Shown piece by piece: positions 328 to 34,861 of a stretch of DNA of 64,000 nucleotides (positions within the stretch are counted from its first letter, which is position 1; every line of letters starts with the position of its first letter). The notes beneath the pieces were generated by a model. It did no database searches. It had not been told where the DNA came from and saw nothing but the letters and a program-made list of their open reading frames with translations. A program made the position numbers and the translations under genes. Source of the stretch: Chrysochromulina parva (lineage: Eukaryota; Haptophyta; Prymnesiales; Chrysochromulinaceae); contig PJAB01000016.1 in assembly GCA_002887195.1 (NCBI GenBank), positions 1 to 64,000 of the forward strand, read 5' to 3'.

Positions 328-3300
328 TCACCACAGCGCTGCCCTATCTCCCCGCTCCGAGACCAAGGGCGAGACGAGCTCCGCCTCCGGTGGCCACGTC
401 GTACGGCTGGGCTCGCGAGATTGAGCCCGAGATTGGTCCCGAGATTGGTCGCGAGATTGAGCCCATGAGGGATCTCGCGGGCTGCAGCAGAGGCGGCTGA
501 GGGCGGAGCACCAGCGGCCGTTGAGGAAGAGGACGAGCGCGTCGACCTGGCGTGGCTGCACCGTGCCCCCGCTCATCAACTGGACTCCACGCAGGTTCAT
601 CGAGTCGGTGCCCACCTGCCATCAGAGGCCATCACAGTGGCCATCAGTGGCCATCACAGTGGCCATCACAGTGGCCATCAGTGGCCATCAGCGGCCATCA
701 GTGGCCATCAGTGGCCATCAGTGGCCATCAGCGGCCATCATCAAATCGGCCATCAGCAGCCATCATCAGCCATCATCAGCCATCATCAGCCATGATCAAG
801 TCGGTGCCAACCTCGATCAGTCGTACGAGCGTCTCCACGTCGCCCATGCCGCCCGCCGCTTGCTCCGCGAGGCTCGTGTGCCGCGCCACCTGCCCAACAC
901 GGCGTCTCATCAATGACAATCAGCGTGAATAGGTCGCCATCAGTGGCAATCCGTCGCCATCAAGTGGAAATCATCACCTGCCCCACAAGGCGCAGGATGG
1001 CGCGGTACAGCCCCTTGATGCAGCCGCTCATCGAGACGATCTCGAGGACCGTGCTGTTCGCGCTGTAAGGCGTGCGCTCGTCCGCCGGCGGCACGATCAA
1101 CCCCAGCGCTGCCAACCCTTCGTCATCCAGCCTCAGGTAGTTACGAGGCACGCTCAACTCGTCGTGCCGCGCCGTGCCGGGCGGCCGTTCCTCGCCGTCG
1201 GCGTCGACGACGAGCACCGTGCCAGCGAGACGGATTTGGTCGGCGGAGGCTCCGATCAAGATCTCGAACTCGCCGGGCTCAACGTACCTGATGAGGGACG
1301 CAATCAGCGACCGGCGGAGGGAGGCAATCAGGGACCTGATGAGGGAGGCAATCAGTGCTCGGAAAGGGAGGCCATCTCAAAGCCCGCCGAGCTCGACGTA
1401 CCAGTCGGAGCGCCGTATATCGTAGAAGGCGAAGGCGCGCGGTGTGAGCGTGAACTGGAGCGTCGTCGTGGCGCCCGGCTCCAGCAGCTTCGTCTTCCCA
1501 AATGCGCGCAGCTCGCGATCTGGCCGATGGACGGAGCAATCTCGATCTCGCACGAAGAGCTGCACAATCTCGCGCGCGGAGATGCGCCCGCTGTTCGTCA
1601 GCTGCACGCTCACCTGGAGCGACTCTGTGGAAGGCATGCGATGCGCCGAGAGGCTCAGCTGTGAATACTCGAAGCAGCTGTAAGTGAGCCCGTGGCCGAA
1701 GCAGAAGCGGGTCGGCGTGTGATGCGTGCAAAACTGGCGGTACCCCACCTGCGACGATCCGACGCAGTCAGATGCAATCGGAGGCCATCAGAAGCATGTT
1801 CAGATGCAATCAGGCCCAATCAGACCCAATCAGGCCCAATCAGGCGCAATCAGGCGCGACCAGAGGCCATCAGCTCACGTTGAGGGCCTCGCGGTACACG
1901 ACAAGGCGAGGGTGGGTCGCAAAGTTGGCGTGCGACGCGCAATCCTCCACACGTAACGGCCACGTCTCGGCAAGCTTGCCGCAAGGCGAGGCGTCGCCAA
2001 AAAGCAGCGCCGCGAGCGCCGTGCCGAGCGCTTGCCCGCCCAGCCCCATGTGCAGGATAGCTGGCACGTCGTCTGCCAAAGCGTCGTAACGATCGCGTCG
2101 TAACGGGCGCGTCGCATTCAAAGGCACTCAGAGGCACTCAGAGGCAAGCATAGGCAATCAGTGGCATTCAGTGGTCATCAGTGGCACTCAGAGGCAGTCA
2201 GGGGCAGTCAATGGTCATCAGTGGCACTCACTCACCTGCCCAGGGCAGTTCCACAGCGGCTCCGCCAAGGATCACAACGACCAGTCGGCGTGGCGCGAGC
2301 ACTTGCCGAGCCAGGGCGTGGCATAGGTTGTTCATCTGGCTTGGCAGCCTCATGTGTTCACGATCACAGCCCTCCGTCTCATAAGAGCCGGGCAGCCCAA
2401 GGATCAAGATCACAATCTCCGCCGCCGAGGCGAGCTCGAGCGCCGTCACGAGCGCCCGAGGGTCGTCGACGCAGCGAGACCAATCATAGCCGGGCGCATA
2501 GCTCACTTCATACCCTCCGCCCTCCGCCCCGTCCTCCGCCCCGTCCACACCGCCGACGAGCCCGCCGAAATCGGCCGGGAGAAGCCCCGTCCACGACGCT
2601 GACGAAGCTGACGAAGCTGACGAAGCTGACGAGGGGGACGACGCGGCGGCCGCGCGCTTGCGGATCGCGTCGAGGGGCGCCTCGAGCATGTGGGGATTGA
2701 TGCGTGACGAGCCGGCGCCTTGGTACCTGATGAGGCAGGCAATGAGTGCCCTGATGAGTGAGGCAATCAGTGGGTGCGTGGCGAACCGGCGCCTTAGTAC
2801 CGGGGATTGGTCGCGAAGCTGCCGATGACTGCGAGCCGATTCTGTCTGCCGAACCGCGCCGTCCCGGGCGCCAGCGCCGTCCCGGGCGGTGGCAGCGGCA
2901 ACGTGTCACGCTCGTTTTTGAGCAGCACGGCGCTCTCGAGCGCAATCTGGCGCGCGAGCTCGTGATTATGCGCCAGGATCGCCGCATGCGAACGCGCCCA
3001 CGACGGCGCCCCTGCGAGCTGCTCATCACGGCGCTCCATCGCCCGCCGCGACGCGAGCAGCAGCGTAGTGACGCGCGTCGCGGCAACGTCCACCGCCGCC
3101 ATGTCCAGATGCCCAGCCTCGGCCGCCGCCCCAACGGCTCGATCATTGAATCCGCCTGATGACGGAGGCAATCAAGGAGGCGATGAGGCGCAATCAGACA
3201 CGCCAACGACTCGATCATTGAATCCGCCTGATGACTGAGGCAATCAAGGTCGCGAACAGATGCAATCAGGCGCAATCAACGGCAAGTACCTGAGGCTGGC

Positions 3301-4224
3301 ATCTCGAGGTCGCAGCCCGCGCGCACGCCCTCGACACGATCATTCACAGCCATCCAGTCCGAAACGACCAGCCCTCGGAAGCCCCACTCCTCGCGGAGCA
3401 CCTGATGAAGGATGCAATCAGTGCCACTCAACGACCATCAAGGGTCATCGCACCTTGATGAAGGAGGCAATCAAAGCCACTTAACGACCATCTGTGGCCA
3501 TGGCACTGAGGCACTCAACAGATGCCACCAGATGCACTCAAAGTGGTGCGACGCTCACCTTTTGCAACAGCCACGGGTGTTCCGTGCAGTACAGCCCGTT
3601 GAGCCGATTGTACGCGGCCATGATGGTCCACGGCTGCGCGCGCGTCACGGCGCACTCGAAGGCTGGCAGGTAGATCTCCCGCAGCGTGCGCTCGTCCACC
3701 CGTGTATCGACGCGCATCCGCTGGAACTCCTGGTTGTTGGCCGCAAAGTGCTTGACGCTCGTGCCGACGCCGCGAGCCTGCACGCCCTCGATGAAGGCGG
3801 CGGCGAGCTCGCCCGCGAGCAGCGGGTCCTCGGAGTAGTACTCAAAGTTGCGCCCGCACAGTGGGTGCCGTTTCATGTTGATCGCCGGGCCGAGCACGAC
3901 AGCGACGCCCTCGGCGGCGCACTCGCGGCCGAGCGCACTTCCCATGGCGTGCGCGAGCGCTGGGTCCCAGGACGCCGCGATCGTGCCGCCGGCGGGGAAG
4001 CACGTCGATGGTCGCGAGCCTCCCGTGCCCATGTGGTCGGCCTCCGCCTCCTGCTTGCGCAGGCCGTGCGGACCGTCGCACAGCATCGCCCTCTCCAAGC
4101 CAAGCCGCGCGACAGCCTTGGTGAACCAGAATGCGCTGCCCGATAGCAGGCCCGTCTTCTCCTCCAGCGTCATCTGCGCGACCAGCGCGGCCGCCTCGCG
4201 CTCGACCTCCTTGTCGTTCATCAT
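328..4224 (-). CDS. Glycoside hydrolase family 3 beta-glucosidase, 9 exons
   Basis: Hydrolyses terminal beta-glucosides. Exons on the minus strand: 4224-3559, 3401-3290, 3155-2801, 2726-2236, 2072-1879, 1748-1402, 1287-978, 889-812, 615-328; all introns are GT-AG and the phases join to 946 residues. Order: GH3 N-domain (1-330) with motif KHFAANNQE and the nucleophile in VVSDW (Asp237); the C-domain starts near PRYQGAGSS (377) and carries YETEG (Glu494/496), the usual acid/base region; a fibronectin-III-like domain follows FGHGLTYSCFEYS. A Ser/Ala and acidic insert sits near 405-450. The start is the first ATG; I see no signal peptide, so a cytosolic enzyme of bacterial GH3 type is likely. The last exon ends in an unusual SRDQSRDQSR repeat tail and is the least certain part. 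It lies 189 bp downstream of the P2X gene on the same strand. Confidence 0.9.
619..800 (-). repeat. Minisatellite filling GH3 intron 8
   Basis: About 17 imperfect 10-bp units, sense direction TGATGGCCAC/TGATGGCCGC. The intron (811-616) opens with GTTGGCACCGACTTGAT, a near copy of the downstream exon start GTGGGCACCGACTCGAT. Confidence 0.9.
1777..1876 (-). repeat. Tandem repeat in GH3 intron 5
   Basis: Units of about 10 bp reading CTGATTGGGC / CTGATTGCGC in the sense direction fill most of the intron 1878-1749. Confidence 0.8.
2105..2232 (-). repeat. Tandem repeat in GH3 intron 4
   Basis: Imperfect units CTGAGTGCCT, CTGATGACCA and CTGATTGCCT (sense direction) occupy the intron 2235-2073. The acceptor lies beyond the array, at TTTGGCAG. 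Confidence 0.8.
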
Positions 4225-4413
4225 GCTATACCTTTCAGGCTCTTTCGTACCCGGGAAAAGCAGACCAAACTTGGCTGTCGTGGGCTGTCACCCGGTGTTC
4301 ATTCACACATAGAGGTCCGTCGACGTCAAAAGGGGCTATGAGCAACGCAAGTGCAGAAACACGACTTGACTTGCTAGGGGTACGAGGTAGAGTGACGCAA
4401 CTATTGCCAAGCA
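4225..4413. promoter_or_regulatory. Intergenic region with a TTGACTTG-type element
   Basis: Spacer between the P2X stop and the GH3 start. GACTTGACTTG (4363-4373) lies about 140 bp upstream of the GH3 ATG. The same element, in either orientation, recurs upstream of four other genes in the window. A role in transcription is inferred. Confidence 0.4.
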
Positions 4414-6128
4414 TTATGAAATCGGCGCTTCCGCGGCGGCCCTCATGCCTGCACCCATGCCGGCGCCCTGTATCGAACCACTGGTGCTCGTCTTCTGGGT
4501 CAAGAGCCAGGCATGCTCGTCCATGCGCTCCATGCGCGCCCGCGAGGCTCGCTTCTTTTGCAGCAGCGTCTCGAGGATCTCTTTCTCGCGCTCAGTCTCG
4601 GGCGCGAAGTCGGGAGTGAGCTGCGCGGACGACGAGGGGGTCCATGGCGTGCCCATCAATGGCACTCGGCGCCAATCAGTGGCACTCAGTGGCACTCAGT
4701 GGAAATGATCTGCCCTAAATAGAGGCGGTACTCAGTGGCAATCAGTGGTACTCAGTTGCAATCAGTACCCTTCAGTGGCAATCACCTGCTCTGCATAGAG
4801 GCGGTAGTCGTTGCGCATGGGTGCCAGGTAGAATAGGAAGCCATCGGCGGCGAGCCTGGCCACGTACAGCAGCCCAGCCCCCGATAGGATCGAGAGGAAC
4901 AGTTGACTCGAATCGAAGACGTTCAAGACGGCCTCCTGTGAATACAGCAGCTGAAGACCGTGAAGATCATAAGTGATGCGAGTTGCGTTCGCGCCTAAGC
5001 CCATCACGTCATCCCCATCAGTCCACGTCACCTTCGCCTCCATGTCGTTCACACTCACAAAGTATTCATAGTGCGCACGCTGGTCCCATTTCGTGTGGTC
5101 GCCTCTGAACACCACGTGGATCCGGACTGTCTGCCCTTCGTAACGCACCGATGCGTTCTTACCTCCCGCCGTGGGGTCGCTATAGATCTCATCGAGATCG
5201 ATACCCGCCGCCCAGACCAGCTGCGAGACTGTGAACTGGTCGCCATAGGACATCGGCTCCACCTAGGCACGACGGCAATCGGAGGTCAATCAGACGCAAT
5301 CAGACGCCATCAGACGCCATCGGAGGGCAATCAGAGGCAATCAGAGGCAATCAGAGGCAATCAGAGGCAGTCGGAAGTAGTCGAAGGCAATCATAGGAAA
5401 TCAGAGGCCATTCGCCGCGCCTCAAAACCCATCGCAGTCACGGGCAATCATAGGTAACAGAGGCATCCTCTTCTAAATGGCGAGGTCATCAGCGGTACCT
5501 GGAAGCGATTGCCCGTGTTGGTACCGGTCATCCACGCTGCCGGCCGCCTGGTATCGAAAGAGTCGATGATGAGGGTCTTGTTGCCGCCGTACAGCTGCTG
5601 CGTCGCCTTGCTCACGGCGTTCTGGATCAGAATCGTCGAGTTCTCGATCCCGCCCACATAGAAGGATTGCTTCGCCGTCTTCTGCTGGAAGTTGTAGCAG
5701 GAATAGTCGAGGTTGGCGCACGTTGGGTCCCGCTCCTCGCTCGTAAAGCTGAAGCGCGTGCCGACCATGAGTGCGCCTTGCTCGCCCGACGTGACCTTGG
5801 AGTACAGGCCCGACGCAAGGTCAGGGTAAAGGCATGGCAGCACGCTGGCAAACGAGCCCGTCGGAGGCGCGTCAGCGGTCGCGCAGTAATTTAATGACGT
5901 GGTGATGGTTTTGGGCTGGTAGACCGTCGAGCGCACGGCACCGATAAACGGGATCTGCGTCACATAGCCTTCCTTCAACCAGATCGTGTACAGGCCCGTG
6001 TACAGAAAGATCGCTAACGCCGAGAAGTAATAGACGTAGCCGAGCGAGCGGTGCCTCACGACGACTTTTTTGAACGTCGTGTACGCAAACAGCTCATCGA
6101 CGTCGATGTTGTTGCAGCAGCTCGACAT
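4414..6128 (-). CDS. P2X-type ATP-gated cation channel, 3 exons
   Basis: Exons 6128-5499, 5262-4786 and 4620-4414 join in phase 0 to give 437 residues. P2X subunits form trimeric channels opened by extracellular or vacuolar ATP. Residues 16-20 read YTTFK, the conserved N-terminal Y-x-T-x-K motif; TM1 is about 27-49; the ectodomain runs to about 325; SYGDQFTVSQLVWAAGIDL matches the pre-TM2 ectodomain of protist P2X; TM2 is about 331-358 with Asp350, followed by YRLYAEQ, where other P2X proteins carry a Y-based stabilising motif. The C-terminal exon is a charged cytoplasmic tail. Fewer ectodomain cysteines than in animal P2X is normal for protist members. In algae such channels may sit on contractile vacuoles or the plasma membrane; the location here is not visible from sequence. 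Confidence 0.85.
4672..4784 (-). repeat. Tandem repeat and exon-edge copy in P2X intron 2
   Basis: Units CTGATTGCCA and CTGAGTGCCA in the sense direction. Within the intron (4785-4621) lies TACCGCCTCTATTTAGGGC, a degenerate copy of the end of exon 2, TACCGCCTCTATGCAGAGC. Confidence 0.85.
5271..5470 (-). repeat. Minisatellite filling P2X intron 1
   Basis: About 17 units, sense CTGATTGCCT with variants, fill the intron 5498-5263. Donor GTACCG, acceptor TGCCTAG. Confidence 0.85.
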
Positions 6129-6262
6129 GACGCGGTGGGGCTCACTCTAGGGAATCTATGAAGTCCTTGTCCCGTTCGATACTAAGCTGTATTCGATGCG
6201 CCATGACTGTGTGCAGACAACTTTTTCCTATTTTGGAACCAGGTGACAGGTCGGCGTGCTTC

Positions 6263-6946
6263 TCAAGCCCCTCTATCCAATTGGGTTCCCAACGCATGAA
6301 CCAGTGCTGCGGCGAGCTGCTTGCACGCCTTTGGATTGCCCGCGGCGCGCTCCTGGTCTTTTGCGGGACCACCCGCAAGGAACCGCAAGACACACGGCTG
6401 CAATGCCCAAATGGGCCACGCCGCCAGCTCGGCCTCGGTGTTCGCCACGACCCGGCTCGAAACTTGATCCGGAGCGGGCACGCCTCCCGCAGCTCGAGCT
6501 GCGACCAGGCAGCGCTCGCTCCACTCGTGCAGCTCGTCCACGTGTGCACATCGCACGGGCGAGAGGTCGACGCATGCCGCGTCGTCGTCAACGCCGGCGC
6601 GCGCGTCGTGGCGCTCAACCCAAACCATGGGTAATCCTAGCGCATCTGCGCGCTGCCGCAGCGTATTGAGCAGCGGCGAGCCCTTTCGCTCGCGTCGCAT
6701 ACCTCGGCCGGTCACAACGGCGAAGCCACGCTTGACGGCCAGCGCATACGCCGTGCGCTCGTCGTCATTGAGCCGGTGCGGAACCTGGCGGCTGCCAATG
6801 CCACGACGTGTGGCCGCCTCGCCGCGCGCAAGCCGCTCGACGTCGGCGAGGGTCGGTCGAGCGGAGGCAAAGGCGAGGCCGAGCCGTCGAGGCACCGTGA
6901 CCATGATTTTCACGTCCCTATACCTGTGAAATCGAAAAGCGAGCAT
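6263..6946 (-). CDS. Hypothetical protein, 227 residues
   Basis: Single exon starting at the first ATG (an alternative in-frame Met lies at residue 15). I do not recognise the family. The middle (NDDERTAYALAVKRGFAVVTG, about residues 62-82, then RRERKGSPLLNTLRQRA) has the alternating hydrophobic and basic character of a folded alpha/beta domain and looks conserved; the remainder is Ala/Arg-rich. It sits 30 bp downstream of the FHA-gene stop and 134 bp upstream of the P2X start, all on the minus strand. No signal peptide or membrane segment is evident. The real C-terminus could differ if an intron is present. Confidence 0.6.
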   Translation of the reverse strand: MLAFRFHRYRDVKIMVTVPRRLGLAFASARPTLADVERLARGEAATRRGIGSRQVPHRLNDDERTAYALAVKRGFAVVTGRGMRRERKGSPLLNTLRQRADALGLPMVWVERHDARAGVDDDAACVDLSPVRCAHVDELHEWSERCLVAARAAGGVPAPDQVSSRVVANTEAELAAWPIWALQPCVLRFLAGGPAKDQERAAGNPKACKQLAAALVHALGTQLDRGA

Positions 6947-6976
6947 GCGATGCGAAATTTGATCACTCGACTACGT

Positions 6977-8203: not shown

Positions 8204-8288
8204 TTCACCCTCACTTTCACACCTCCATGACACGCGCTGTAATGAGCGTTCCGAACCATTTGTAAAAAGGGGAGAGTTTCAGGTCTCG

Positions 8289-12818: not shown

Positions 12819-15800
12819 TCACCTTGAGAGCGCATCCTCAAGATAGCTGTCGAACCCAGGCGAGAGGACACGCATGCGTGAGACCGGTGACTTGGCAGGA
12901 GGCGAGCTCCGTTGGAGCGCCTTCTCGAGCGTCTTCTGGCAACGGGGATGGAAAGGGCCCAGGTGCGCCACGTCCTGCGGCTCGAGCCCAAGGCTGAGGA
13001 GCCGCTTCGCCCATTTTTGGCCATCGCCCAAGTTGTCGAGCACGTGCTGCAACTCGTCCATGTAGCGCACCTGCCGCCGGAGCCATTTGTGCCGCTGGAT
13101 GCGCCAGCGCGCCTCGGCACACCAGTATGAGAGCGCCACCTTGAGCACGCGATGGCGGCGGCGCGGGAGCAGCTTCGAGCGACGTCGCCAGCTCGCCAGC
13201 GTGTACCAGTGCCACAAGGTGTCGACCTTGAGCCGCCACGATCGGCGCGGGATGACGCGCAGCTTGAGGGTGCTCATGGCCTCGTGAAAGTTCGCCTCCT
13301 TCACACACCATTGACGAAACCGGCGCATGCCGCGCCGGCACGCGGCGCCATCGCCTCGCGGCTGAAGCCATCGAGCCTCGACATCGCGCCGTTTCATTCG
13401 CCACTGATATGCAACCCAGCGCTGCACCGCGGTGAAGAACATGTGGCGGTGCACCTGTGGGGGCGAGGCGCCGTGGTGAGCACCCGCATGCAAGGCAGGT
13501 CATCAGGTGGCTATCAATGTGCTGCATGCGGCGCCGTGGTGAGCACCCGCATGCAAGGCAGGTCATCAGGTGGCTATCAACGTGATGGCAGCGGACGGCG
13601 GGTGCACCTCGGCCTTGATCGAATCGAAGCGCAGCTTGAGCATCGCCATTTGGCGGCGCACCTGTGGGGAAGGGAACAGGGCGCCATGGTGAGCACATGC
13701 ATGCTGAGTTGCCCAGGCACCAACTGGCGGCGCACCTCCGCCAGGTGCGTCTTGAGCGCCTTGCGCGCGAGGTGCGCTCGGACGAAATGACGAAACTCGA
13801 ACCGCCTTCGGATCTTGAGCATGCGTGAGCGACTCGTGATAGCCTCGAGCCGCCGCCGCTTGCGCCCATCCACCGCCGCGCGAGTTGCGGCGACCCAGAA
13901 CTGGATCGCTATGCCCGTACGGGCGAAGCCGGCCGCCTCGGCGAGGTCGGCCTTCGCCTTCGCCTTCGCCTGGGTGGCACGAGCCCAGCGCAACAAGCCG
14001 TCCTCGCGCTCGCGCTTCTTCTGCTTCGCGCGCACGTGTGCGGCTTGATGGATCATGGACGCCATATAGGACCACTGGCGGAGCGCCCGCTCGAGCGTCG
14101 TCTTGAGCGCCTTCCACTCCGACCTGGCTTTGAAGAGCCGGGCGAGCTTGCGACGACGCGCCTGGCGGAAGAAGGCGCCGAGGGCTCGCCGGCAGCCGAA
14201 GCGGGCGCACACCTTGTGCATGGTGCCCACCGCGGCGCGTCGCGCGTCGGCGTACCGGTACCACACTGCGCAGGCGTCGCCGAGCTGCCCGGTGCTGTGC
14301 CAGTCAGAGGCCTTGTCCATCCTCCTCTGTTGGAGGATGGTGCGGGCTCGATGGCCGAGCCATCGACGAGAGCCCCACTTGGAGCCGTTACGTGCCCAGG
14401 CTGTGAGCACGGCTGGTTGGCGCGCGCGCGCCGCCTGCCGCTCGGCCTCGCGCGCCGCGCCAAAGGCGCACCAGTGCAGCCACCCCGAGCGTGTCTGGCG
14501 GCGCAGGTGATGGCGCAGCACCGTTTCGGCTGGCACGCTCGGGGTGTTCAGATCGCACACTGCCCATGTGGCGGCTAGCCGCTGATGGAGCTGCCGCTTG
14601 ATGAGCTCGTCATCATCACTCTCGCAGAGCAGACGCAGCGCGCGAGCCGCAATTGCGAGAGCCGCCGCCGCCGCCGCGCTCCCACTGGCTGCCGAAGCGG
14701 CGGCCGCTGCTTGCATGAGCTCCTTGGGCGTCGTGCCGTGCGCTGCCTTGAGGCCCGTGCCGGCTGCGCCAGCGCCGTCGTCGTCGTCAGCGTCGCGCTC
14801 GTCCGGATCGCCCTCGACCAGCGCGCCGCTCTTCGGGCGCCGCCTCTTCTTGGCGATCTTGGTCTGTGAACAGCCCGCCGCGAGCACCTGCTGCGTCAGC
14901 GAGCGCTCATAGATGGGTCTCACCTGCCAAATTTGGGTGTGACGCATGCGCCTGCGCTCCTCAGAGCTCCCAACGGGAGATTGTTCGAGCCAGAACTTGC
15001 GCGCTGCCTCGAGCTGCTTGTGCACGTGCTCGCGCGTCGCCTTTGCCTCCGCTGCGTGCGCCGCCGCCTCGGTGGCTCTGGTCTGCGCTGTGTGCTCTTC
15101 CATCGCCTGTAGCGAGCGACAGACGACCGTTCGTGGAGGTGCGTGGACCGCTCGTGGATCGGCTTTGAATGCGTCGCGGCTCACAAAGAGGCCGTGGGCT
15201 GAGGTCATCTGGCTGAGCAGCGCGCCGCCCAGCCACTGCGCCAGGCGCCGGTCCGGGTTGGCAAACACGCGAGGCATCAGTGCCGTGGCACCCTTGTCCA
15301 CGAGAGTGGTTTTGAGACCTTCCTCAAGGCGCTCTGGACACTTTGCGAGCTTGCTCGTACCGCCGACGAGGACGACATGCCCGAGCAGCTGCTGCCGGAG
15401 GCTCACGTCCGCGAGCATCACGGTGCGCACGATCGCCTCGGGCAGCCCGCACAGCTCCTTGGCCGCTGCGTGCTCGTCGTCCAACAGTGAGGGATCAAAG
15501 AGTCCGTCGCAGCTCGCGTCGGCCGTGCGGCCGCAGTGCTTACCGCCGAGCCCATGGAGCACTGCGCCGTCGAGCACGCTCTTGCCATCGTACATGATGT
15601 AGATGAACGTCGCGGGGAACCCCACGTCCACTAACACGCCCGTGTCGAACTGGGCGTTGTACACGGCAAGCAGAGGTCCAGGGTAGCAGCACACGGCCTG
15701 CACGGCCTGCACGGTAAACGCGGCGGCTGCAGCGCGCTCGCGATGCGCCTCGGACTCGTCAGGAGGCTCGGCGAGCACGAGCGCACACTCTTCCAGCTCC

Positions 15801-15967: not shown

Positions 15968-16020
15968 CGCGAGGTCACCAGCAAGTCGCCCTCGGCAAAA
16001 CGCTGCCCTGGACCGACCGT

Positions 16021-16065
16021 CGTGTGGCCGCTAAAATTCGTTTCGAAAATTTTAGCGGCCACACG
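16021..16065. promoter_or_regulatory. 18-bp perfect inverted repeat upstream of actin-Sfi1
   Basis: Arms 16021-16038 (CGTGTGGCCGCTAAAATT) and 16048-16065 are exact reverse complements around a 9-nt loop, 54 bp upstream of the actin-Sfi1 ATG. It could be a protein-binding palindrome or a 5' UTR hairpin. The rest of 15968-16202 shows nothing else. Confidence 0.75.
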
Positions 16066-16202
16066 CTGCTTCGAAATGGCGACGTCGTGAAGAAGCAAAT
16101 CAGGGTGCACCAGTACTCGTCTTGTCACGTTGACTCTTCTAGGTGAAAAACCATATAATGCTGTTTATGCTCCATGGCGCTTGGCGCATGGGACTTAGCT
16201 CA

Positions 16203-16889: not shown

Positions 16890-17031
16890 GGTCGATAAAG
16901 CGGAGTGCTCGAAGACGGAAGTGGCCAGTCGGGAAGTATCGCCGGATTTCGTCAGAGAGTCAGAAATTGCGTTTTGCGTGCCTACCAACACTACACTAGA
17001 CTCACTAAGCGTCGTCCACGTGCTTCCGGTC

Positions 17032-17904: not shown

Positions 17905-18317
17905 TCGGCGTGATGAAAGAGGTGCGTGCCACGATCAGGTCTGGTCAGGGTCGGTCATAAAATGTGTTTGCAGTCAAGTCTTGGCAAGCAAGTCAAGTCC
18001 GTCTTCTCCACCCCCTCCCTTCCACCCTTCCGGTGCTCTCTCGATAGGCTTCCGTATGGGTGTCTGTAGTTTATGTATAGACTTGTCTTGGGAGGGACGA
18101 AACCGCAGCCCCTGGGACCGCAGCGCAGCTTGCAGCGCAGCCGGCCGGACTGCCCTTGCCGGACTGCCGGAGCCCGGAGGACCCGCCAAGGGACCCGCGC
18201 TGAGGCTAACACGTAACAGGAGCTGTCGTGGGGAGAGATGAGTCCTTGTCTCCTGGTGCGGTGATGCGATTTTCGCTCATTACTCCCTAATTTGGAACGT
18301 GCGCTTCGTCCACGCAG
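17905..18317. promoter_or_regulatory. Divergent promoter region with a module shared with 57.9 kb
   Basis: Lies between the divergent ATP-grasp and orphan genes. GTCAAGTC elements span 17972-17999, and a 49-bp block (18042-18090) is about 85% identical to 57894-57939, which also lies in a divergent gene spacer. No gene is visible in the spacer. Confidence 0.55.
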
Positions 18318-22226: not shown

Positions 22227-25200
22227 TTACTGGAGCGAGACAAGCAGATCGCCTGCCTGAACGTCATCACCTGCGGCAACGCACACCTCGCCAACCTTGC
22301 CCGCAATCGGCGCCGTGACAATCGTCTCCATCTTCATGGCCGACAGCACGACCATCGGGGTGCCGGCGGGCACATCGTCGCCCGGCTTGACGCGCGTCTC
22401 GACGACCACGCCCGGCATCGGAGCGCCTACCGAGCCGGCGTCGCCGGCTGTGGCCTTCTGGCGCGTGATGCGGGTTTTGGCGGCGTTGCGGTCGAGGACG
22501 TACACGGAGCGAGGCATGCCGTTGAACTCGAAGTAGACTTCGCGGAGCCCGGTCTTGGCGTCGAGCTTACCCACGGCCTGGAGCTTGATGCCGAGCGTCT
22601 TGCCCTTCTCGAGCTCAACCGAGATCTCCTCGCCGAGCTCCATGGGCTCGATGAAGGCGCGCGTGGGCAGCTTGGACACGTCGCCATAGAGGTCAATGTC
22701 CTCCTTGTACTGCTCGAAGACCTTCGGGTACATGACCCAGCTCATCAGGTCCGTCTCCTTGACGCGCTCGCCGTACTTGGCCTTGAGTGTCGCCAACGCC
22801 TTCTCGAGATCGAGCGGAGGCAGCGTGGCGCCCGGACGGCCGACGAAGGTGGGCAGGTCCTTGACGACCTGCTTCTGCATCGGCTGTGGGAAGCCGCCAA
22901 AGGGGATGCCGATCGCGCCCTGGAAGTACTCGACGACCGACGAGGGGAAGGAGAGGGATTCGGCCTGGTCGCGCACCATCTGCTCGGTGAGCTTGTTGGT
23001 GGTCATGAACTGCGCGAGGTCGCCGACCACCTTGGACGAGGGCGTCACCTGTGGGGGAAGGGGGAGGGGGAGAGGAAGGTGAAGGGAGGGGGACGGGGGA
23101 GGGGACTACCTTGGATGAGGGCGTCACCTTGACGATGTCGCCCAGCAGCTTGTTGGCCGCCGCGTAGTTCTTCTTCACCTGGCTCCACTCAGCAGCCAGC
23201 CCTAGCGAGGTAGATTGGAACTGGAGGTTGGTGTACTGGCCCCCGGGCATCTCGTGCTCGTACACCTCTGCTGAACCGCTCTTTTGGCCCGACTCGAACG
23301 CAGCGTACGAGAAGCGCACCTGTGGGGAAGAGAGAGAGAGAGGGAGGTGGGGGGGGGCAGATAGTGAGCAGAGGCATGCTGGGCGGGGGCAGGTGGCCCA
23401 GAGCGTCGTGGTGAGCATATGCATGCTGGGCGGGAGACGTGCGAGAAGCGTACCGACTCCCAGTACTCGATGAGCTGGCAATCAGATGGCAATCCGATGG
23501 CAATCCGATCGCAATCAGAAGCGTACCGACTCCCAGTACTCGATGAGCTGCGTCAGGTCCTTCATCTCAATGCCTGTCTTGAGGTCGTCATTCTGGAGGG
23601 CCGCCACAAGCGCCCCCATCGAGGGCTGCGAGGTCATGCCGGACATCGAGTCGATCGCCGCGTCGACCGCGTCGGCGCCCGCGGCGGCGCACGCGAGCAT
23701 CGAGGCGACGCCCGTACCAGCGGTGTCGTGCGTGTGCACGTGGATCGGGAGTGACGGGAACTCACGCCGAAGCGCCGAGATGAGCATGGTGGCCGCCTTG
23801 GGCTTCAGCAGGCCGGCCATGTCCTTGATGCAGAGCACGTGTGTGCCCGAGTTGACGAGCTCGCGCGCGAGCTCTAGGTAGTAGTCGAGCGTGTACTTGC
23901 CTTTTTGGGGATCCGAGATGTCGCCCGTGTACGAGATGGCCGCCTCGACCACGCCGCCCGCCGCGCCGACGGCGTCGATGCCCAGCTTCAGGTTGTCCAC
24001 GTAGTTGAGCGAGTCGAAGACGCGGAAGACGTCCATGCCATGGCGCACCGAGACGTCGCAGAACTTGAAGATCGCATTGTCGGGGTAGTTGGTGTAGCCG
24101 ACTCCGTTCGCGCCACGCAGGAGCATCTGGAAGGGCACGTTGGGCACGGCCTCCCGCATGGCGGCAAGGCGTTCCCACGGGCACTCACGTAGGAATCGAA
24201 GGGCGACATCGAAGGTGGCACCTGTGGAGGGAGCGAGGGGGGGCATCGTAGTGAGCGTGCATGCTGGGCGGGAGATGCTTTCACCTCTCTGAGCGAGTAG
24301 CAATCAGCGGGCCATCAGAGGCCATCAGAGGCCATCAGAGGCCATCAGAGGTCATCAGAGGCCATCAGAGGCCATCAGAGGCCATCAGAGGCCATCAGAG
24401 GCCATCAGAGGCCATCAGAGGCCATCAGAGGCCATCAGAGGTCATCACCTCCCCAGTTCTCGAGCGAGTAGCACCCGGCGAGAGCGTGCGCCGTCACGGG
24501 CGCGATGGCGAGGATATCTTTGGTGCGCATGCGCGTGGCCAGCAGCGACTGGTGCGCGTCACGCCACGTCGTGTCGGTGATGAGCAGCCCGCGGTGCTGG
24601 CGCACAGCCTTCGCGAAAGCCTCGGGACCGCCAGCCTCAAGAATCTGCTTCAGACCCGGGCGTGGTTTCATCGGGTTGGGTGGCGGCACGAGTGGGGTGA
24701 TGCGCGGCGTCACGCCGCCGCTCGCGCCAACCATCTGGCGACCGTTGACGACGAGATCGCCGAGATAATTGAGGAGCTTCTGGCCGCGGTCCTTGGAGAA
24801 CTTGAAGTCGAAGAGCTCGGGGTGGTCCGCGATGAAGGAAGTGGTGGCAGCTCCCGACAGGAATTCCGGATGGCGGAGCACGTTGAGGATGAACGGAGTG
24901 TTCGTCTTGACGCCGCGGATGCGCGTCTCCTGAAGGGCACGCGTGAGTTTGTCCGCCGCCCCTTGCCAGGTGAGCGCCGAGGCGGTCACCTTGGTCAACA
25001 TGGAGTCATAGTGGGGAGAGATGGTGGCGCCAGGATACGCGTTGCCGCCGTCGAGACGGATGCCGAAGCCCTCGGCCGGCCGCCAGACCTGCAGTCGGCA
25101 TGCACTCAGACACAATCAGACGCAATCAGACGCACTCAGACGCAATCAGACACAATCAGACGCAATCAGACGCAATCAGAAGCCCTCGGCCGGCCGCCAG

Positions 25201-27004
25201 ACCTGCAGTCGGCCTGATGAGGGAGGCAATCAGCAGCGGCCCGTGCCCGACAAGGGAGGCCATCAGCAGCGGCCAGACCTGCAGACGGCCCGTGTCCGGT
25301 CGGAAGTTGTCTGCCGGATCCTCTGTCGTCATGCGCGCCTGGATGGCGTACCTGATGAGGGATGCAATCAGGCAGGCCATCAGTGGCAATCAATAGCAAT
25401 CAGTGAGACATGGCGAGCCTGATGAGGGAGGCAATCAGGCAGGCCATCAGTGGCAATCATTAGCAATCAGTGAGACATGGCGAGCCTGATGAGGGAGGCG
25501 ATCGGGGCTCAAGAATGAGATCTCAATCTCCGTTCCTCCGTACGACGGAGATCGCGATCTCCGTTCCTCCATACGACGGAGATAGCGATCTCCGTTCCTC
25601 CATACAACGGAGATAGCGATCTCCGCCCCCCCATTCGACGCACTCGGGGCGCAATCAGCAGCGTACCCGCGCTTCTGGATCGTGTCTTGCTTCGTCATCG
25701 GAGGGAGCAATCAAGAGCAATCAATAGCAATCAGCAGCGTACCCGCGCTTCTGGATCGTGTCCTGCGAGAGCCCAATCTCCTTGAGCCTTTGGCCGGCGG
25801 CGACCCGAATCTGGGTCTGGACGAGATCGACGCCGGTGATGACCTCAGTGACCGTGTGCTCGACCTGGATGCGCGGGTTCACCTCCATGAAGTAGTATTG
25901 CCACGTCTTCGGATCCACAAGGAACTCGACAGTGCCCGCGCAGAAATAGCCGGCGCCCGCCGTGATGCGCACCTTCACGATATTACGGAATATATCGGGA
26001 GGCAATCGGAGAGTTCAGCCGCATGCAATCAGAGGTCATTATCATATATCGGGAGGCAATCGGAGAGCTCAGTCGCATGCAAACAGAGGTCATCACACTC
26101 AGTTCCGAAGGCGCACCGCGTCGTCATAGAGCTTCTGGGTCAGATCGGCAGGCAGACCGATCGCGGGAGCAACCTCGACGATCTTCTGGTGGCGGCGCTG
26201 CACGGAGCAGTCGCGCTCGAAGAGGTGCAGCGTGTCGTGCCCATCTGCCATGATCTGGATCTCGACGTGCCGAGGTGAGTCGACGTACCGCTCGATGAAC
26301 ATCGCACCGTTTCCGAAAGCAGTCAGGGCTTCGTTCGATGCGGAGTTGAAGTTGGTCTCGAGTTCATCGGCGGAGCGCACGACGCGCATGCCGCGCCCGC
26401 CGCCGCCAAACGCCGCCTTGCAGATCACCGGGTACCCAACCTTGTCGCAGAATTCGCGAGCTTCCTTGATGCTGGTCACCCATTCTGACGTCCCGGGCAC
26501 GACCGGCACGTTGTGCGCGATCGCGAGCGCGCGCGCCTCGGTCTTGTCGCTAAACTTGTGAATCACCTTGGAGGGCGGTCCGATGAACGTGACGCCCGCC
26601 TGCTCGCACAGCTCCACGAAGCGCGTGTTCTCCGACAGGAAGCCATACCCCGGGTGGATGGCGTCGACGTCGTTCTTGACGGCGATGTCGACAATCTCCT
26701 CGGCGGAGAGGTAGGCGCCCACTGGCGACTTGCCCTGGCCGACGAGGAAGGACTCATCCGCCTTGTACCGGTGCAGCGACCCGAAGTCCTCCTTGGAGTA
26801 GATGGCGACCGTCTTGATGTTCAGCTCGGTGGCAGCACGGAAGATGCGGATGGCAATCTCGCCACGGTTGGCGGCCATGAGCTTACGGATTGGCCGCCAG
26901 CCCGGCTTGGCAGGGGGCGGCGTCACCAGCGCCGTTCCGCCTGATGAAGCCGACGAGAACGAGCGCCGCAGCAGGCCGAAGCCGCCTACAGAGCTGCGTC
27001 GCAT
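22227..27004 (-). CDS. PC: Pyruvate carboxylase, mitochondrial, 7 exons
   Basis: Carboxylates pyruvate to oxaloacetate with ATP, bicarbonate and biotin. Exons 27004-26117, 25972-25743, 25351-25279, 25088-24449, 24221-23527, 23319-23128 and 23048-22227 join in frame to 1179 residues, the usual length for the family. The N-terminus [20 protein letters not shown] is a mitochondrial presequence; upstream in-frame sequence has no ATG. Biotin carboxylase: [14 protein letters not shown], the Gly-rich [28 protein letters not shown]. Carboxyltransferase: [30 protein letters not shown] and [12 protein letters not shown] (Lys of the active site), HVHTHDT. Biotin carrier: SAMKM with biotinyl Lys near 1145. 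All key residues visible are intact. Introns 1-5 carry exon-edge copies or CTGATNGCC arrays. It is divergent from the coiled-coil gene at 27217. Confidence 0.95.
23354..23434 (-). repeat. Two copies of a GCATGCTGGGCGGG element in pyruvate carboxylase intron 5
   Basis: AGAGGCATGCTGGGCGGG near 23361 and ATATGCATGCTGGGCGGG near 23417 (plus strand). A third copy lies at 24254-24274 in intron 4, and related GGTGAGCAxxTGCATGCTG sequence is in actin-Sfi1 intron 1 (13688-13707). Confidence 0.8.
23444..23550 (-). repeat. 34-bp perfect direct repeat spanning the end of exon 5
   Basis: Copies at 23444-23477 (intron) and 23517-23550 (exon 5 end plus donor) are identical. Between them sit CTGATTGCC/CGGATTGCC units. 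The intronic copy keeps AG in front and GTACGC behind, so it could act as a 21-nt in-frame exon (LIEYWES). Confidence 0.9.
24303..24446 (-). repeat. Minisatellite in pyruvate carboxylase intron 4
   Basis: About 14 nearly identical 10-bp units (sense CTGATGGCCT), one of the most homogeneous arrays in the window. The donor GTGATGACCT is itself a one-base variant of a unit (CTGATGACCT). Confidence 0.95.
25104..25186 (-). repeat. Repeat and exon-edge copies in pyruvate carboxylase intron 3
   Basis: Units CTGATTGCGT/CTGAGTGCGT/CTGATTGTGT. The junction CTGCAGGTCTGG occurs three times: at the donor, inside the intron (about 25198-25210) and at the acceptor (about 25085-25096), with flanking GGCCGGCCGAGGGCTTC in the last two. 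Confidence 0.9.
25353..25742 (-). repeat. Composite repeats in pyruvate carboxylase intron 2
   Basis: Two copies of a roughly 68-bp unit (25353-25492), then three 31-bp units (25530-25622) containing the palindrome CGGAGATCGCGATCTCCG (25546-25563), then a copy of the exon 2 end (about 25656-25684 versus 25734-25762). Confidence 0.85.
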
Positions 27005-27216
27005 GGTTCCTAGGTCAGCCTGATGAAGCCGCTCATTTCCCAAGAGACCTAATAGTAGGCTCGGTTGAATTCCTCAATCTCCGAAGTGAAAATTTCACAA
27101 TGTTTTCGATGAGGTGCCGTCAGACTCGCATTCGACTTCTCTGGATGGTCGATGGTGGAGGACTATGTTAAGATTTCGATACATTGTATGACAAGATTTC
27201 GCTCGTGTACCATGGT

Positions 27217-29646: not shown

Positions 29647-30375
29647 GTACTTTAACAGACGCGCGCGACCGGTCCCGTCTCGCGTAAATAAAATGAAAAA
29701 TCTAAAAACATGAAAAAGATCAAATGTTTAGCCACAGTTGAAACGGGCGGCCAGTCCGCGTAGGCCGATGCACGAAGCGAATACCGCACCGAATAGCAAC
29801 AGGTGGACCGGATGCATGTAACGAAAACGACGGGCGGCTGCCAGCCGGGTGCGCTCGCCCCGCGCCGCCTCGGAGCTCGGTCCGCGGTTAAGGGGGCAGC
29901 GACGAGCGTGTCGGCCTCGGCACTCCTGAAGACGTCACGCATAGATGCACCGAGACGGCATGCGGCGGTGCCGTGTGCCATGCGGATCTCGTCCAGCGTG
30001 TCCTGTCATTGTGGCTACTTTGAGTACGACATGATCGAACCACCTTCAATGCTCTGGCCTCTGCGCGCGTGTGCTCAAACAAAGCTCCAGGCTCACACGA
30101 CTGCCGATCGCCTGCCCAGCGCAACGCAGCGATGGCAGGAAGCACGCACTGCAGTCGCGTGAGTCGGTCACAGCATCAGCAGCGCGTGACGATGGTCTGG
30201 CGCCGATCGCCCAGTGCAATGCCAGCTTTGCGCGTTCACCGGCCATGGCAATGCCAGCGCCGCACTCTGAGACAACTGTGTCCGCTTTACGGTCACCGAC
30301 GCGTTTCGGACTGACTGAGAGACTGACTGGAACAGCCCCGCAAGCCGCGACGGGATTGCGTCGGAACCCTCAACG
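29647..30375. other. Convergent intergenic region, 0.7 kb
   Basis: Lies between the 3' ends of the coiled-coil gene (+) and the TPR-methyltransferase gene (-). AT-richer just after 29646 (29680-29740, likely 3' UTR and polyadenylation region). No supported gene. Confidence 0.5.
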
Positions 30376-33300
30376 TCAAGTGCGCGCGACCTGATTCTCC
30401 TCGAGCATGCATTCGTCCTCGCCCTCGTCGTCGTCGTTCACCTCAGCCGACTTGTTGGCGGGCGCGCAATCTGTCGGGTTGTCCTCGAGCATGCATCCGT
30501 CGTCGTCGTCGTTGTCGTCGTCGTCGTCGTCCACCTCCATCGTCTTCTTGGCTTTGGGGTTGGGCGCACCGGCAAGCACCGTCACGGCCACCTCGACGAC
30601 CGGGTTCTCCTCGAGCAGGCACCCCTCTTCCTCCTCGTCCTCGTCCACCTCCTCCATGTCCTCCACGACGTCATCACCCTTGCCTGCCACCGGCCCGGCC
30701 CGCGCCGCCACTGCCGCCGCCGCCTCTGCTGATGCCTTGCCGCTACCGCTGCCGCCGCTTGGGTTCATCTGGGCCCCCGCGGCGCTCACCACGGCGCTCT
30801 GGGGCGTGCTTCGAGGCATGCCGCGGGACGCGTTCGCGGTCACGACATCGTAGCCCGTCGCATTCGCACGCCGATTAAACTCCTCATCCGGCGTCAGCGT
30901 GACTTCGTCAGCTTTGGGCGTCGGCGTCGGCGTCGGCGGCGGTGGCGGCAGTGCCGGCTTGGGTGGAGGCTCGGTGTCCTCCGGAAGCGCGGCCGGCGGC
31001 GCACTGAGCGGCGGAGGAGGAGCGGCGGTTGGGTCTGGTTGGAACGCCATCAGCCGACGAGCGACCACAATCTGTGCGATGCGCCGCTGCACAAAGCCCG
31101 CGTCCTGAAGGTCGCACAGATGCAACCAGAGGAAATTAGAAGCAGCCCGAGGCCATCAGAGGCCATCAGAGGCCATCAGAGGCCATCAGAGGCCATCAGA
31201 GGAGGCCATCAGAGGCCATCAGAGGCCATCAGAGGCCATCAGAGGCCATCAGAGGCCATCAGAGGTGCTCACCTGCAGGTCGACCAGATGCGTCTCCCAC
31301 GTCTCACGCGACTCGATCACGACGAGCCTGATGAGGGAGGCAATCAGAGGTCATCAGGGTTTCATCCAGAGAGAACGGTCGAGCTGGTGCAGCGAGTACC
31401 TGCCCTGCGGCCCGAGCAGCGCGCGCAACGAGAGCAGGAAGCTCTCCTTGGCCGCTGGCGCGACAAAGTCGAGAACGTCGCACATGAAGATCAGGTCGGC
31501 CTTGGTGCCGCCAGGCAGCGCGGGGACAGCCGTCTCGCTCATGCGCATCGGTATGAGCCGGCCTGTGAGTGCCTCGTTGCGGACCTTCTCATGCAGGAGC
31601 TGCAGCGCGTCGGTTCGCACCTCGAGGCCAAAGATCGTGCTCCGGGGCATCGCATGTGCAAAACAAGAGCTGAAGAGGCCGCTACCGGCACCCACGTCGA
31701 CGATGATCGCGTCCGGCTCGAGCTCTGCCCCGACGAGCTCAACCACCTGATGAGGGAGGCCATCAAGCTCAGTGGCAATCCGCGCCTGAGGCAGGGCACG
31801 CTCACACGCCCCAGCAGAGCGAGATCGCGATCTGGCTATCGAGCTCGATCAGCAGAGCGAGATCGCATCTGGCTATCGAGCTTGATCTCACCTTTGGTAT
31901 GTTCACCTCCCATCATCAGTCGTCATCAGGGGAGATCTCACCTTTGGTATGTTGAGGTTTTCGCGCCGCGCCTCCGCTTCGAGCGCTGCCTCGAGCGTCT
32001 GGCCGCCCGGACGCAGCTTGTCGGCCTTCTTGCCGGAGATGCGCATCTCCTTGAGCTCCTCAAACGAGATCATCTCCTGCACAACCTGCTCCATCCAGGG
32101 GGAATTTTCTCAGAAGTCGGCAGTCGGCCATCTAAGGCACTCAGCATGCACTCAGCATGCACTCAGCATGCACTCGGCATGCAATCATCATGCAATCATC
32201 ATGCACTCGGCAGGCACTCGGCAGGCACTCGGCAGGCACTCGGCAGGCACTCGGCAGGCACTCGGCATCCCACGCAGCCCAGCATCGAGCACGCACCTGC
32301 TGCAGCTTCCCCACAGAGCCACGCTCAGTGAAATAGTGGTTGGCACGATCGAGCCATGCCGTGTCCGAGAGCGCCACGCGCAGCGCCTTGCCTGATGAGG
32401 GAGACAATCCACGGTCATCATCAGAGGCCATCAGAGGCGGTTATCGGAGGCCAATTAGTGGCCATCAGAGGCCAATTAGTGGCCAGTTAGTGGCCAATGA
32501 GAGGCCAATTAGTGGCCAATAAGTGGCGGCCGGTCGTGGCGCAATCGGAGTCACTCAGAGGCCCTCCGCAGCGCCCTACCTGCCGCGTCCTTGGCGGCAT
32601 CCTCCTTGTGCAGCCAAAGCGGGATGAGGACGTCATGCACATCCTCGGCTCGCAAGTTGGGTAGGCGCTTCCGCTTTTGGAACGAGAGCAGAAATTGCAT
32701 GCATTTGCACCCACCGCACGCCGCGTCGTCGCTTGGCTGCCCACTGAGCACCTGGCAATCAGAAGCAAACAGAAGCAATCAGTGGGCAATCAGAAGCGTC
32801 GTCGCTTGGCTGCCCACTGAGCACCTGGCTCATGCGACGGAGCACCGCAATCAGAGGCCATCAGAGGCCATCAGAGGCCATCAGAGGCCATCAGAGGCCA
32901 TCAGAAACACCTGGCTCATGCGACGGAGCACCGAACCCTCATCGAAGGCGTCGATGGCTGCATGGAAGGCCCCGTGGTTCGCGACCAAGCCGAGCAGCTG
33001 GCACGCGTCGTCTCGGGCGTCCTGGGAGTAGAGCGTCGTCTTGACGTTCGCGTTCAGATCATCGGAAGCGTCCGATGTTTCGCGGCACTGCAGCAGCCAC
33101 GCAGGCAGCCCGTATTCGACGGCCCGCTCGAGAGCTTGCCGCGAGTGCTGCATCATCGCGCGCAGCAGCTTTAGTGCGGCGCAGCTGAGGGGAGGGCGCG
33201 CCACGAGCGCCGACGAGAGATGCTTCCACACGCCCAGCCGGTGGAGCGCCTCGGCGATCTCGGCGTCCGAGATCGTCTCGAGCGCCGTCCCGAGCACGAG

Positions 33301-34861
33301 CGCCGTGAGCACGCGGCTGCTCTCGGGCGCGAGGTTCGTCAGGTCTCGCACCACCAGATGCTCGGGCTCGCTCGTACTCGGGTCGCCCACGTCCCAGGTC
33401 TCGAGCTCCTTCTCGTTCTCGGTCATCTGCTCCAGCAGCCCGACGAGGCGTCTGGTGCGCTCGACGAGACGCAGCCGTTTGCGGCAGATCGGGTGGCCGA
33501 ACGCGCGCGCCAAAATCGAGCGCGCCGGCGTCCGAATATCCTCGCGGCGCGAGTGCGACTCGCGCCAAAACGTGTCGCATGCACCAGGCACGCTCAGCAG
33601 CGTCGCGAGTGTGGACATGTCCTTCAGGTCATCGATCGCCTGGATTGTGTACGTCGCGGGGCGCGATCAGAGGCACTCAGAGGCACTCAGAGGCACTCAG
33701 AGGCACCCAGAGGCACTCAGAGGCACTCAGAGGCACTCAGAGGCACTCAGAGGCACCCAGAGGCACTCAGAGGCACTCAGAGGCACTCAGAGGCACTCAG
33801 AGGCACCCAGAGGCACCCAGAGGCACTCAGGCACCCATAGGCCATCAGAGGCACGCACCTGGATGATGTACGTCGCGGGACGCGCCTGCGACGAGTCCGG
33901 ATGTGAAAGCACGTGCATCACGCCCTCTGCCGAGTCAGGATCGTACATAATCTTGCGTGCCGCGACGCGATGGGCCATCGTCCCGAGCACCTTGACCGCT
34001 GCCTTGAGCAGCTCAAACGGCAACGTCGCCTTGGCGCGAAGCAACGGCACGAGCTGCCTGACGTACTTGTCAAACGCAAGCTGATTGGAGATGCAATCAC
34101 GCAGCGAGGCGGCGATCGTCTCGAGGCATTCTCGTAGGAGCTCGGCTTGTTTGGGCATCGGTCGGATCAGGGGAGCGAGCAGCGCGTAATTATCCGTCAT
34201 CAGCCGAAAGTAGACCTGCGCCGCGTCTCATCCGAGGGCACTTAGAGGCACTCGAGGCACTCAGAGGCACCCAGAGGCAATCAGAGGCACTCAGTGGCAT
34301 TCCGTGGCGTTTCGTGGCAATCCGAACTCGCCTGGGCGTCGTAATTGGGCCCAGAGGCAATCCGAGGCAATCCGAGGCGTTCCGAACTCGCCTGGGCGTC
34401 GTAATTGGGCGCGGACTCATAGCTTCGGTCCCCAATATTCCCCACATCATGCACAAGCTTCAGCGCCATGAGAAGCGTCGGCATCTGCTTGAAGATGGCA
34501 ATCACCTGATGCAATCAGATGCAAGGAGACGACACTCAGACGGTACTCAAGAAGGCACTCAGACGACACTCAGACGACACTCACTCAGACAGCAGTCAGA
34601 CGACACTCACTCAGACAGCAGTCAGACGGCAGCAGTCAGACGGCAGCACTCAGACGGCAGCAGTCAGACGGCAGCCAGACGGCAGGCAGACGCTCAGAGG
34701 GCACTTGGATGACACTCGCGGAGATCGCAATCACCTCCGCCGCCGTGCCCTTTCGCTTCAGGAGCGAGCTCAATCGTGAGCTCAACTCGCGCAGCTCGAT
34801 CAGCACGCTGTCCTTGCCGCTGCGTGCGAGCCCAACCACGCGGTACTCGTCCTGCACACAC

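Follow-up and report, generated by a model that had tools for sequence, protein, structure and literature searches.

Among the closest described systems to the introns considered here are the introners, some of which co-opt one splice site from a target duplication of 3-9 bp (PMC9860276): those of Symbiodinium carry the 3' site and take the 5' site from the duplication, and those already known from a metagenome-assembled genome of a Chrysochromulina sp. carry the 5' site and have a 4-bp duplication (PMC9860276). The introner elements of Amoebophrya are bordered by direct repeats of 3-5 nt and have inverted repeats of 8-20 nt, and many of their splice sites are non-canonical (PMC7789003). Under the tandem genomic duplication model (Rogers 1989, via PMC4974935) the duplicated DNA is itself the intron, and the new introns of Daphnia have exon-edge repeats of 4-12 bp and are for the most part of unknown source (PMC4202315). 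In a survey of 213 introns, every one is reported to have direct repeats of 4-30 bp (mean 11.4) nearby (PMC11782384), and controls with mismatched pairs therefore matter to any analysis of this kind. For haptophytes, a genome paper noted that variation among them raises questions of intron gain and loss (PMC8379373). The present analysis concerns the introns of three genes in a stretch of 64,000 nt from the haptophyte Chrysochromulina parva (GenBank assembly GCA_002887195.1, contig PJAB01000016.1, positions 1 to 64,000), referred to in full as "the window", and the relatives of these introns elsewhere in the same genome.

The origin of new introns is an old open question, and genomes with many fresh events are few. 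From the features described below, we consider it probable that in C. parva introner-like fragments have been inserted into exons with unusually long target duplications. Many introns with such dispersed sequences would document three things: the empty site, preserved in the duplicated exon; their relative age, readable from how far the copies agree; and where each splice site came from. How a broken insert turns into a working intron can be tested on such a record.

Exon-edge copies at the introns of the window

Spliced alignment of the DNA to homologous proteins gave the intron positions; donors could be GT or GC, acceptors were AG, and repeat information played no part. This gave 26 introns of 68-391 nt: eight in GH3, six in the pyruvate carboxylase gene (PC) and twelve in the TPR-methyltransferase gene (TPR). 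All counts of window introns cover these three genes; the actin-Sfi1 gene, which takes its name from an earlier reading of the window made from the letters alone (the sequence-only reading), and a gene at ~4430-6130 stand outside the homology models. The start of the intron is an in-register copy of the start of the downstream exon in 11 of the 26, the end of the intron is an in-register copy of the end of the upstream exon in five, and a copy of either type at the opposite intron end is present in 15. At least one of four exon-edge tests was passed, at the 1% level of mismatched pairs, by 20 introns where about one is expected; the six introns without an exon-edge copy in these tests are GH3-1, -4 and -5 and TPR-3, -9 and -11. 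When the downstream partners were permuted 2000 times, the observed summed in-register score of 143.5 stood against a mean of 57.9 (standard deviation 7.0, maximum 93), and for as many permutations of the upstream partners the score of 111 stood against a mean of 65.8 (standard deviation 5.0, maximum 93.5). In the table of exon-edge tests the copied edges of the 26 introns measure at most 29 nt.

Exon-edge copying at the window introns is real, and the analysis confirms it. The sequence-only reading had claimed such duplications for at least 17 of 30 introns, a figure that is about right. The cases that it named in the three genes (GH3-3, -6 and -8; PC-2, -3, -5 and -6; TPR-1, -4, -5, -6, -7 and -8) hold in the exon-edge tests. 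In its first intron of the actin-Sfi1 gene the opening 11 nt match the start of the downstream exon throughout, for a score of 11; the largest mismatched pair of the exon-edge tests scores 7.5.

The upstream exon terminates in G at 24 of the 26 introns, and the downstream exon starts with GT at 18. Two further gaps, one in GH3 (2502-2621) and the last one in TPR (30726-30758 or 30724-30774, depending on the homolog set), were taken for artefacts of the aligner in coding DNA of low complexity and left out of the counts. Two protein homologs of the TPR product (P0241 and P0242, 83% and 69% identical to it) are encoded at full length on contigs of up to 11.7 and 24.4 kb, which hints at few introns there, subject to the gene caller used. 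The PC of the window is closest to algal proteins, the best named match being Haptolina ericina (taxid 156174; 78%), with further matches in the pelagophyte Chrysophaeum (68%), Emiliania and Diacronema (67%) and Phaeocystis (65%); by themselves these matches would make the source probably a prymnesiophyte haptophyte.

Dispersed families and long duplications at their sites

The first of two families, F1, consists of ~10-bp units (sense TCTGATKRCC) terminating in CTGATTGCNTCCCTCATCAG, of which the genome (here and in all genome-wide counts the 45-Mb assembly of 2199 contigs) holds 693 exact copies and zero copies of the reversed pattern. These ends are followed by GT in 461 cases, by GC in 84 and by other bases in 148. 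Their last 20 bases contain, by eye, CTGAT...ATCAG; terminal inverted repeats are a feature of some introner families. Many of the window introns consist of such units, and ATCAG forms the 3' end of 10 of the 26. Arrays of F1 units number 12 on the minus strand of the window and none on the plus strand; 11 of them lie within homology-placed introns of minus-strand genes, and the remaining one, near 5325, in an unmodelled gene. The second family, F2, has the core GCATGCNNNTGCTCACYAYG, usually accompanied by a pyrimidine tract terminating in CCCCACAG, and is represented by 832 exact copies (reversed control, 0). Its inserts have ragged 5' ends, and within the window it is found in the actin-Sfi1 gene and in PC intron 5. 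Judged by these motif copy numbers, similar and presumably intronic copies appear at many unrelated loci, as is the case for introners.

The bodies of the window introns come mostly from dispersed families and not from local copies. A local origin of the filler was considered and rejected: arrays from the same locus are no more alike than arrays from different loci (0.179 versus 0.170, p 0.16, 22 arrays). The phenomenon is patchy across the genome, because five arbitrary 10-kb stretches held one F1 array only and a scan for exact repeats, described below, found no excess of AG|GT edges. A search of the window against Rfam gave no match at the gathering score, and no F1 was found in viral contigs. 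F2 does occur at the end of an IMG/VR contig that looks phage-like by eye (L159, 4495-4554; L numbers are our handles for individual loci), together with AG|GTGAG and perhaps as an assembly chimera with a haptophyte from the same sample; the F2 core without the rest of the element occurs in one bacterial bin, likely by chance.

Sites were then picked by family motif only, and the local DNA was tested for an in-register duplication. For F1 ends followed by GT (F1+GT), 63 sites were obtained from 70 loci after clusters had been collapsed to their last member and identical sites removed. The sample is not random: the first 30 F1 loci, like the F2 sites, come from the largest contigs, the other 40 F1 loci represent two motif variants, and many clustered sites were skipped. 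A duplication score of at least 10 was reached at 39 of the 63 F1+GT sites (null, 11/3906), and a score of at least 12 at 33 (null, 0/3906). Eight of the 39 have an F1 end directly before the upstream copy too, so that this copy comes from another unit of a longer intron, and the counts without these eight are 31/63 and 25/63. For F1 ends followed by GC (F1+GC), a duplication starting with GC scored at least 12 at 13 of 25 sites (null, 4/600; one of the 13 is unit to unit), and for F2 the corresponding figure is 29 of 40 (null, 5/480), with 24 of 40 at a score of at least 16 (null, 0/480). The acceptor at the motif-chosen F1 sites would come from the insert and the donor from the duplication.

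The duplications measure 10-47 bp for F1 and 15-69 bp for F2, whose inserts are 21-137 bp long, and exceed the 3-9 bp described for introners, not all families of which have a target duplication. The two copies are identical over the scored stretch at 20 of the 39 F1+GT sites and 11 of the 29 F2 sites, or 31/68 (for example 48/48, 45/45, 35/35 and 32/32), a count that is favoured by scoring that takes the best stretch, the shortest identical one being 10 bp. So many identical copies suggest recent events. At two loci (L097, 117-191, and L102, 98-177, plus strand) F1 filler lies between duplicates of 29 nt that are identical, yet neither AG|GT nor AG|GC gives an exact solution.

Duplications of such long and variable length favour a cut with a wide stagger, or a patch left by repair, over a cut-and-paste transposase with a short, fixed duplication. 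The repair of double-strand breaks, as proposed for Daphnia, would account for them by the filling in of staggered breaks and the capture of pieces of intron DNA or cDNA, with no mobile element as such, and the variable duplication length, the truncation of fillers at one or both ends, the donor-spanning insertions without the family 3' end and the recurrent events at one site (L042, TPR intron 7) all agree with it. Repair of this kind should use any sequence as filler, yet two families recur hundreds of times (at sites mainly chosen by those families), and the Daphnia repeats are only 4-12 bp long (PMC4202315). We regard this explanation as less likely than not.

Possible sources of the splice sites and probable birth within exons

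The genome scans for the order duplication, filler, duplication required a gap between the copies by design, and they were run over sequence that had been fetched in part by the F1 motif. With F1 units in the filler there were 77 events, and a splice that restores the exon exactly (donor in copy 1, AG at the same place in copy 2) is possible in 51 of them, an excess that is partly built in since F1-fetched loci carry AG at the end of the filler by choice; the antisense control gave 23/77 and eight other dinucleotide rules gave 5-24/77. An exact-restoration solution exists for 17 of 29 F2 events.

Three arrangements can be distinguished at the level of the sequence. In type A the duplication starts at GT or GC and would give the donor, and the insert would give the acceptor. 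In type B the acceptor would come from the duplication and the donor from the insert (L004, L043, L048, L123 and TPR intron 6). In type AB, AG|GT lies inside the duplication (TPR intron 7, L026 at 1129, and L041 at 6322 and 9543); where AG|GT is only two or three bases inside, the event may be of type A with chance matches at the edge. Given all three, the loss of either end need not keep a fragment from becoming an intron. One further duplication around F1 filler (L041, 4386-4465, plus strand) opens with GA, and with AA in its other copy, and not with GT or GC; this is a possible non-canonical donor.

The type AB events, among them the two identical duplications of TPR intron 7 (26/26 and 34/34), are what the sequence-only reading had in mind when it proposed that tandem duplication of an exon segment containing AG|GT yields donor and acceptor at once and that the duplicate becomes the intron. 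The scans do not count against this model, because a required gap makes filler-free tandem copies undetectable. What does count against it is that copied edges of at most 29 nt sit in introns of 68-391 nt whose bodies derive mostly from dispersed families, and we consider the model highly improbable as stated. Part of the claim survives: birth with local exon duplication is upheld by duplications that are long, often identical and in register, and by an intron position in a PAS gene (below) that is uninterrupted elsewhere, and the donation of both sites by one duplicate would fit a subset of introns, always with filler. The part that is not supported is the identity of duplicate and intron, since the copied edge makes up only part of each intron.

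Where F2 inserts lack the 3' splice tract, the sum of duplication and insert is divisible by three in 6 of 7 events (L125, L130, L133, L138, L139 and L153), as compared with 8 of 22 events with the tract (one-sided Fisher p 0.03, which is optimistic because the pattern was noticed by eye in the same rows before testing). For the seventh event without the tract (L123) the acceptor can come from the duplication.

Taken together, these observations lead us to a sequence of steps that is conditional throughout. Dispersed introner-like families would insert into exons, often as fragments, with a direct target duplication of ~10-69 bp. The insert would bring CTGAT motifs that resemble branch points and, provided that the 3' end has stayed intact, the acceptor CATCAG or CCCCACAG; the duplicated exon would supply what is missing, namely the donor if it starts with GT or GC, the acceptor if it ends in AG, and both if AG|GT lies inside. 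Splicing, which we infer from the spliceability of the DNA, would then return the original exon exactly, and copies that cannot be spliced may persist when the added length is a multiple of three. Existing introns might be lengthened by later, similar events and by tandem duplication of whole units.

With regard to the enzymes, reverse transcription would account for a 3' end that is constant while the 5' end is ragged, and selection for the acceptor gives the same picture; 3'-truncated inserts speak for the capture of fragments. Target-primed reverse transcription of intron RNA by a LINE-type element would leave a fixed 3' end, a ragged 5' end and a variable duplication, much as is seen at type A sites, and five RVT_1 matches are present in long frames of the genome. 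The inserts L123, L130 and L153 are truncated at the 3' end, which such a process should hold fixed and which selection alone can also fix; the full family motifs are absent from ten retroelement stretches (the 8-base CTCATCAG alone occurs in three), in which the element ends were not located; and a Pfam search of one frame, in which RVT_1 itself fell below the cut-off, did not recover an endonuclease that had been noticed by eye. We rate this explanation as rather improbable. Low-copy reverse-transcriptase elements are present in the genome at L049-L058.

The remaining alternative is that the introns are old and that exon edges were copied into them later by slippage or unequal exchange. Later events do occur: duplications that span the donor are present in PC-2, PC-5 and the L042 gene (at 6136), whole-intron units are found in tandem, and eight of the 39 F1+GT copies come from another unit. 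Later copying should have placed a duplicate of the downstream exon start next to that exon and not at the far donor, and the register, with the copy exactly at the far donor in 11 of the 26 window introns and at 31 of the 63 F1+GT sites, therefore points to birth over decoration. The frame kept by six of the seven F2 events without the tract argues in the same direction. So does a gene with two domains (C19; PAS by Pfam) that has an intron in its second domain only: the position of this intron is crossed uninterrupted in 19 of the 19 other genome matches that cover it, including the first domain of the same gene. We judge later decoration to be very unlikely as the general origin of the copies, and the birth of introns together with local exon duplication is supported, as far as sequence comparison can speak to it.

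In L021, L024, L035, L042 (minus strand, 6363-6518) and L079, entire intron units of 65-77 bp are repeated in tandem; AG|GT stands where one unit meets the next, and such borders could act as acceptor and donor in recursive splicing. In L042 (minus strand, 3154-3329 and 4077-4152) one GC-AG intron has a second unit that opens with an exon-derived tag belonging to a different intron of that gene; this shared tag was set aside as evidence, as gene conversion, with whole-intron copying as the alternative, fits equally well.

Besides the limits attached above to the spliceable F1 events, the identity of the copies and the frame test, several results weigh against the insertion of fragments with long duplications. 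A duplication is absent at 24/63 F1+GT, 12/25 F1+GC and 11/40 F2 sites. The antisense control of 23/77 is not small, and 12 of the 29 F2 events have no exact splice solution, three of them with the 3' tract (L145, L147 and L150) having none even with slack. Among the six frame-keeping F2 events, L133 is also spliceable and the tested stretch of L153 is not crossed by an open frame; since 21 of the 22 F2 events with the tract are crossed by one as well, openness proves nothing. The PAS matches are only 26-43% identical, and seven of the 19 lie in one reading frame. A mobilising enzyme for the F1 and F2 families was not found. Finally, exact repeats in the window and the five arbitrary 10-kb stretches show no excess of AG|GT edges (1/40 strand readings at 14 bases or more and 4/96 at 12 or more, with other dinucleotide patterns at 0-4), a result that tells against the idea except where sites are selected by family or some divergence is tolerated; exact matching may miss older duplications that have drifted too far apart.

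Fragment insertion with long duplication nevertheless ranks first among the explanations considered, with break repair or reverse transcription as the candidate enzymology. In its most specific form, which we advance tentatively and at somewhat less than even chances, a repair- or retroposition-like process patches intron fragments into exons at widely staggered breaks (~10-70 bp), the duplicated edge supplies the lost splice site, and failed rescues survive only as in-frame peptide insertions. If this is true, intron gain needs no intact element at either end.

Table 1. Introns and family sequences of the window, with the exon-edge copies found in them
Feature	Positions	Strand	Observation
GH3 intron 2	3156..3289	-	25-nt internal copy of downstream exon start
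GH3 intron 3	2727..2800	-	first 26 nt (2775-2800) copy downstream exon start (2701-2726); ends in CTCATCAG
GH3 intron 6	1288..1401	-	at least the first 17 nt copy downstream exon start; exact F1 3' ends at 1288-1307 and 1336-1355
GH3 intron 7	890..977	-	type B; last 15 nt copy upstream exon end
GH3 intron 8	616..811	-	first 17 nt copy downstream exon start; F1 array at 616-757
PC intron 1	25973..26116	-	weak; first 6 nt match downstream exon start
PC intron 2	25352..25742	-	donor-spanning 40-nt duplication (39 identical) with 36-nt filler; exact F1 3' ends at 25352-25371 and 25419-25438
PC intron 3	25089..25278	-	copies at both ends, AG|GT within duplication; exact F1 3' end at 25214-25233
PC intron 4	24222..24448	-	F1 arrays at 24309-24439; internal 12-nt copy of upstream exon
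PC intron 5	23320..23526	-	10-nt downstream-exon copy at start; internal 24-nt copy of upstream end; F2 core at 23407-23426
PC intron 6	23049..23127	-	first 24 nt copy downstream exon start; insert C/T-rich, without family motif
TPR intron 1	35433..35500	-	first 18 nt copy downstream exon start
TPR intron 2	35157..35308	-	type B; last 10 nt copy upstream exon end
TPR intron 4	34506..34734	-	first 13 nt copy downstream exon start
TPR intron 5 (GC-AG)	34216..34391	-	19-nt internal copy of upstream exon end
TPR intron 6	33640..33858	-	type B; last 26 nt copy upstream exon end; F1 arrays between
TPR intron 7	32752..32910	-	two nested identical duplications (26/26 and 34/34 nt), AG|GT in each; fillers of 60 and 39 nt
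TPR intron 8	32392..32579	-	start copies downstream exon start (GT versus GC)
TPR intron 10	31747..31941	-	12-nt internal copy of upstream exon end; ends in CTCATCAG
TPR intron 11	31328..31399	-	exact F1 3' end at 31328-31347; duplication not found
TPR intron 12	31105..31272	-	type B; last 19 nt copy upstream exon end; F1 array at 31150-31263
actin-Sfi1 intron (name from the sequence-only reading)	13662..13735	-	F2 insert with core at 13685-13704; 11-nt copy of downstream start; placed by eye
two F2 cores, 63 bp apart	13472..13554	-	apparent next intron of the actin-Sfi1 gene (by eye)

Two other kinds of repeat were seen by eye. About four copies of a ~70-bp repeat (ttgaaaccctcccccaaggtcaaaatctcgcgcc) lie at 53220-53530 of the window, and short runs of the pentamer CAAGT/ACTTG lie near 17970, 49540, 52940 and 57860, apparently near gene ends, as well as at 4250-4410 of L042 (minus strand).

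Comparison with known routes of intron gain

The introns described here share features with each of the systems with which we began. As in Amoebophrya, repeated introns have direct repeats at their borders, and the differences lie in the direct repeats of 3-5 nt, the inverted repeats and the many non-canonical splice sites described there (PMC7789003). As in the tandem genomic duplication model, a duplicated exon segment would give splice sites and leave the peptide unchanged, whereas here other sequence lies between the copies and the body of the intron is not made of duplicated exon (PMC4974935). The likeness to the introns attributed to staggered breaks in Daphnia lies in the exon-edge repeat at the far end of the intron, found in 15/26 introns here, and in repeated bouts within one intron; the repeats are longer here, and the filler comes from families (PMC4202315).

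The resemblance to introners (Gozashti et al. 2022, PMC9860276) lies in similar introns at many loci, with one splice site probably carried and the other co-opted. Unlike the introners of that paper, the C. parva introns have duplications of ~10-69 bp and variable length, their inserts are often fragments, one of their families is a minisatellite, and the missing site can be either one or both. In the literature covered, which takes in only part of the subscription papers and no preprints, the portions available to us describe no introners with duplications this long and neither of the families F1 and F2. What is distinctive of the system in C. parva is the length of the duplication, the fragmentary nature of the inserts and the interchangeable source of the splice sites, and it is in this combination that mobile introners and local duplication, which are usually treated as opposed models, are joined.

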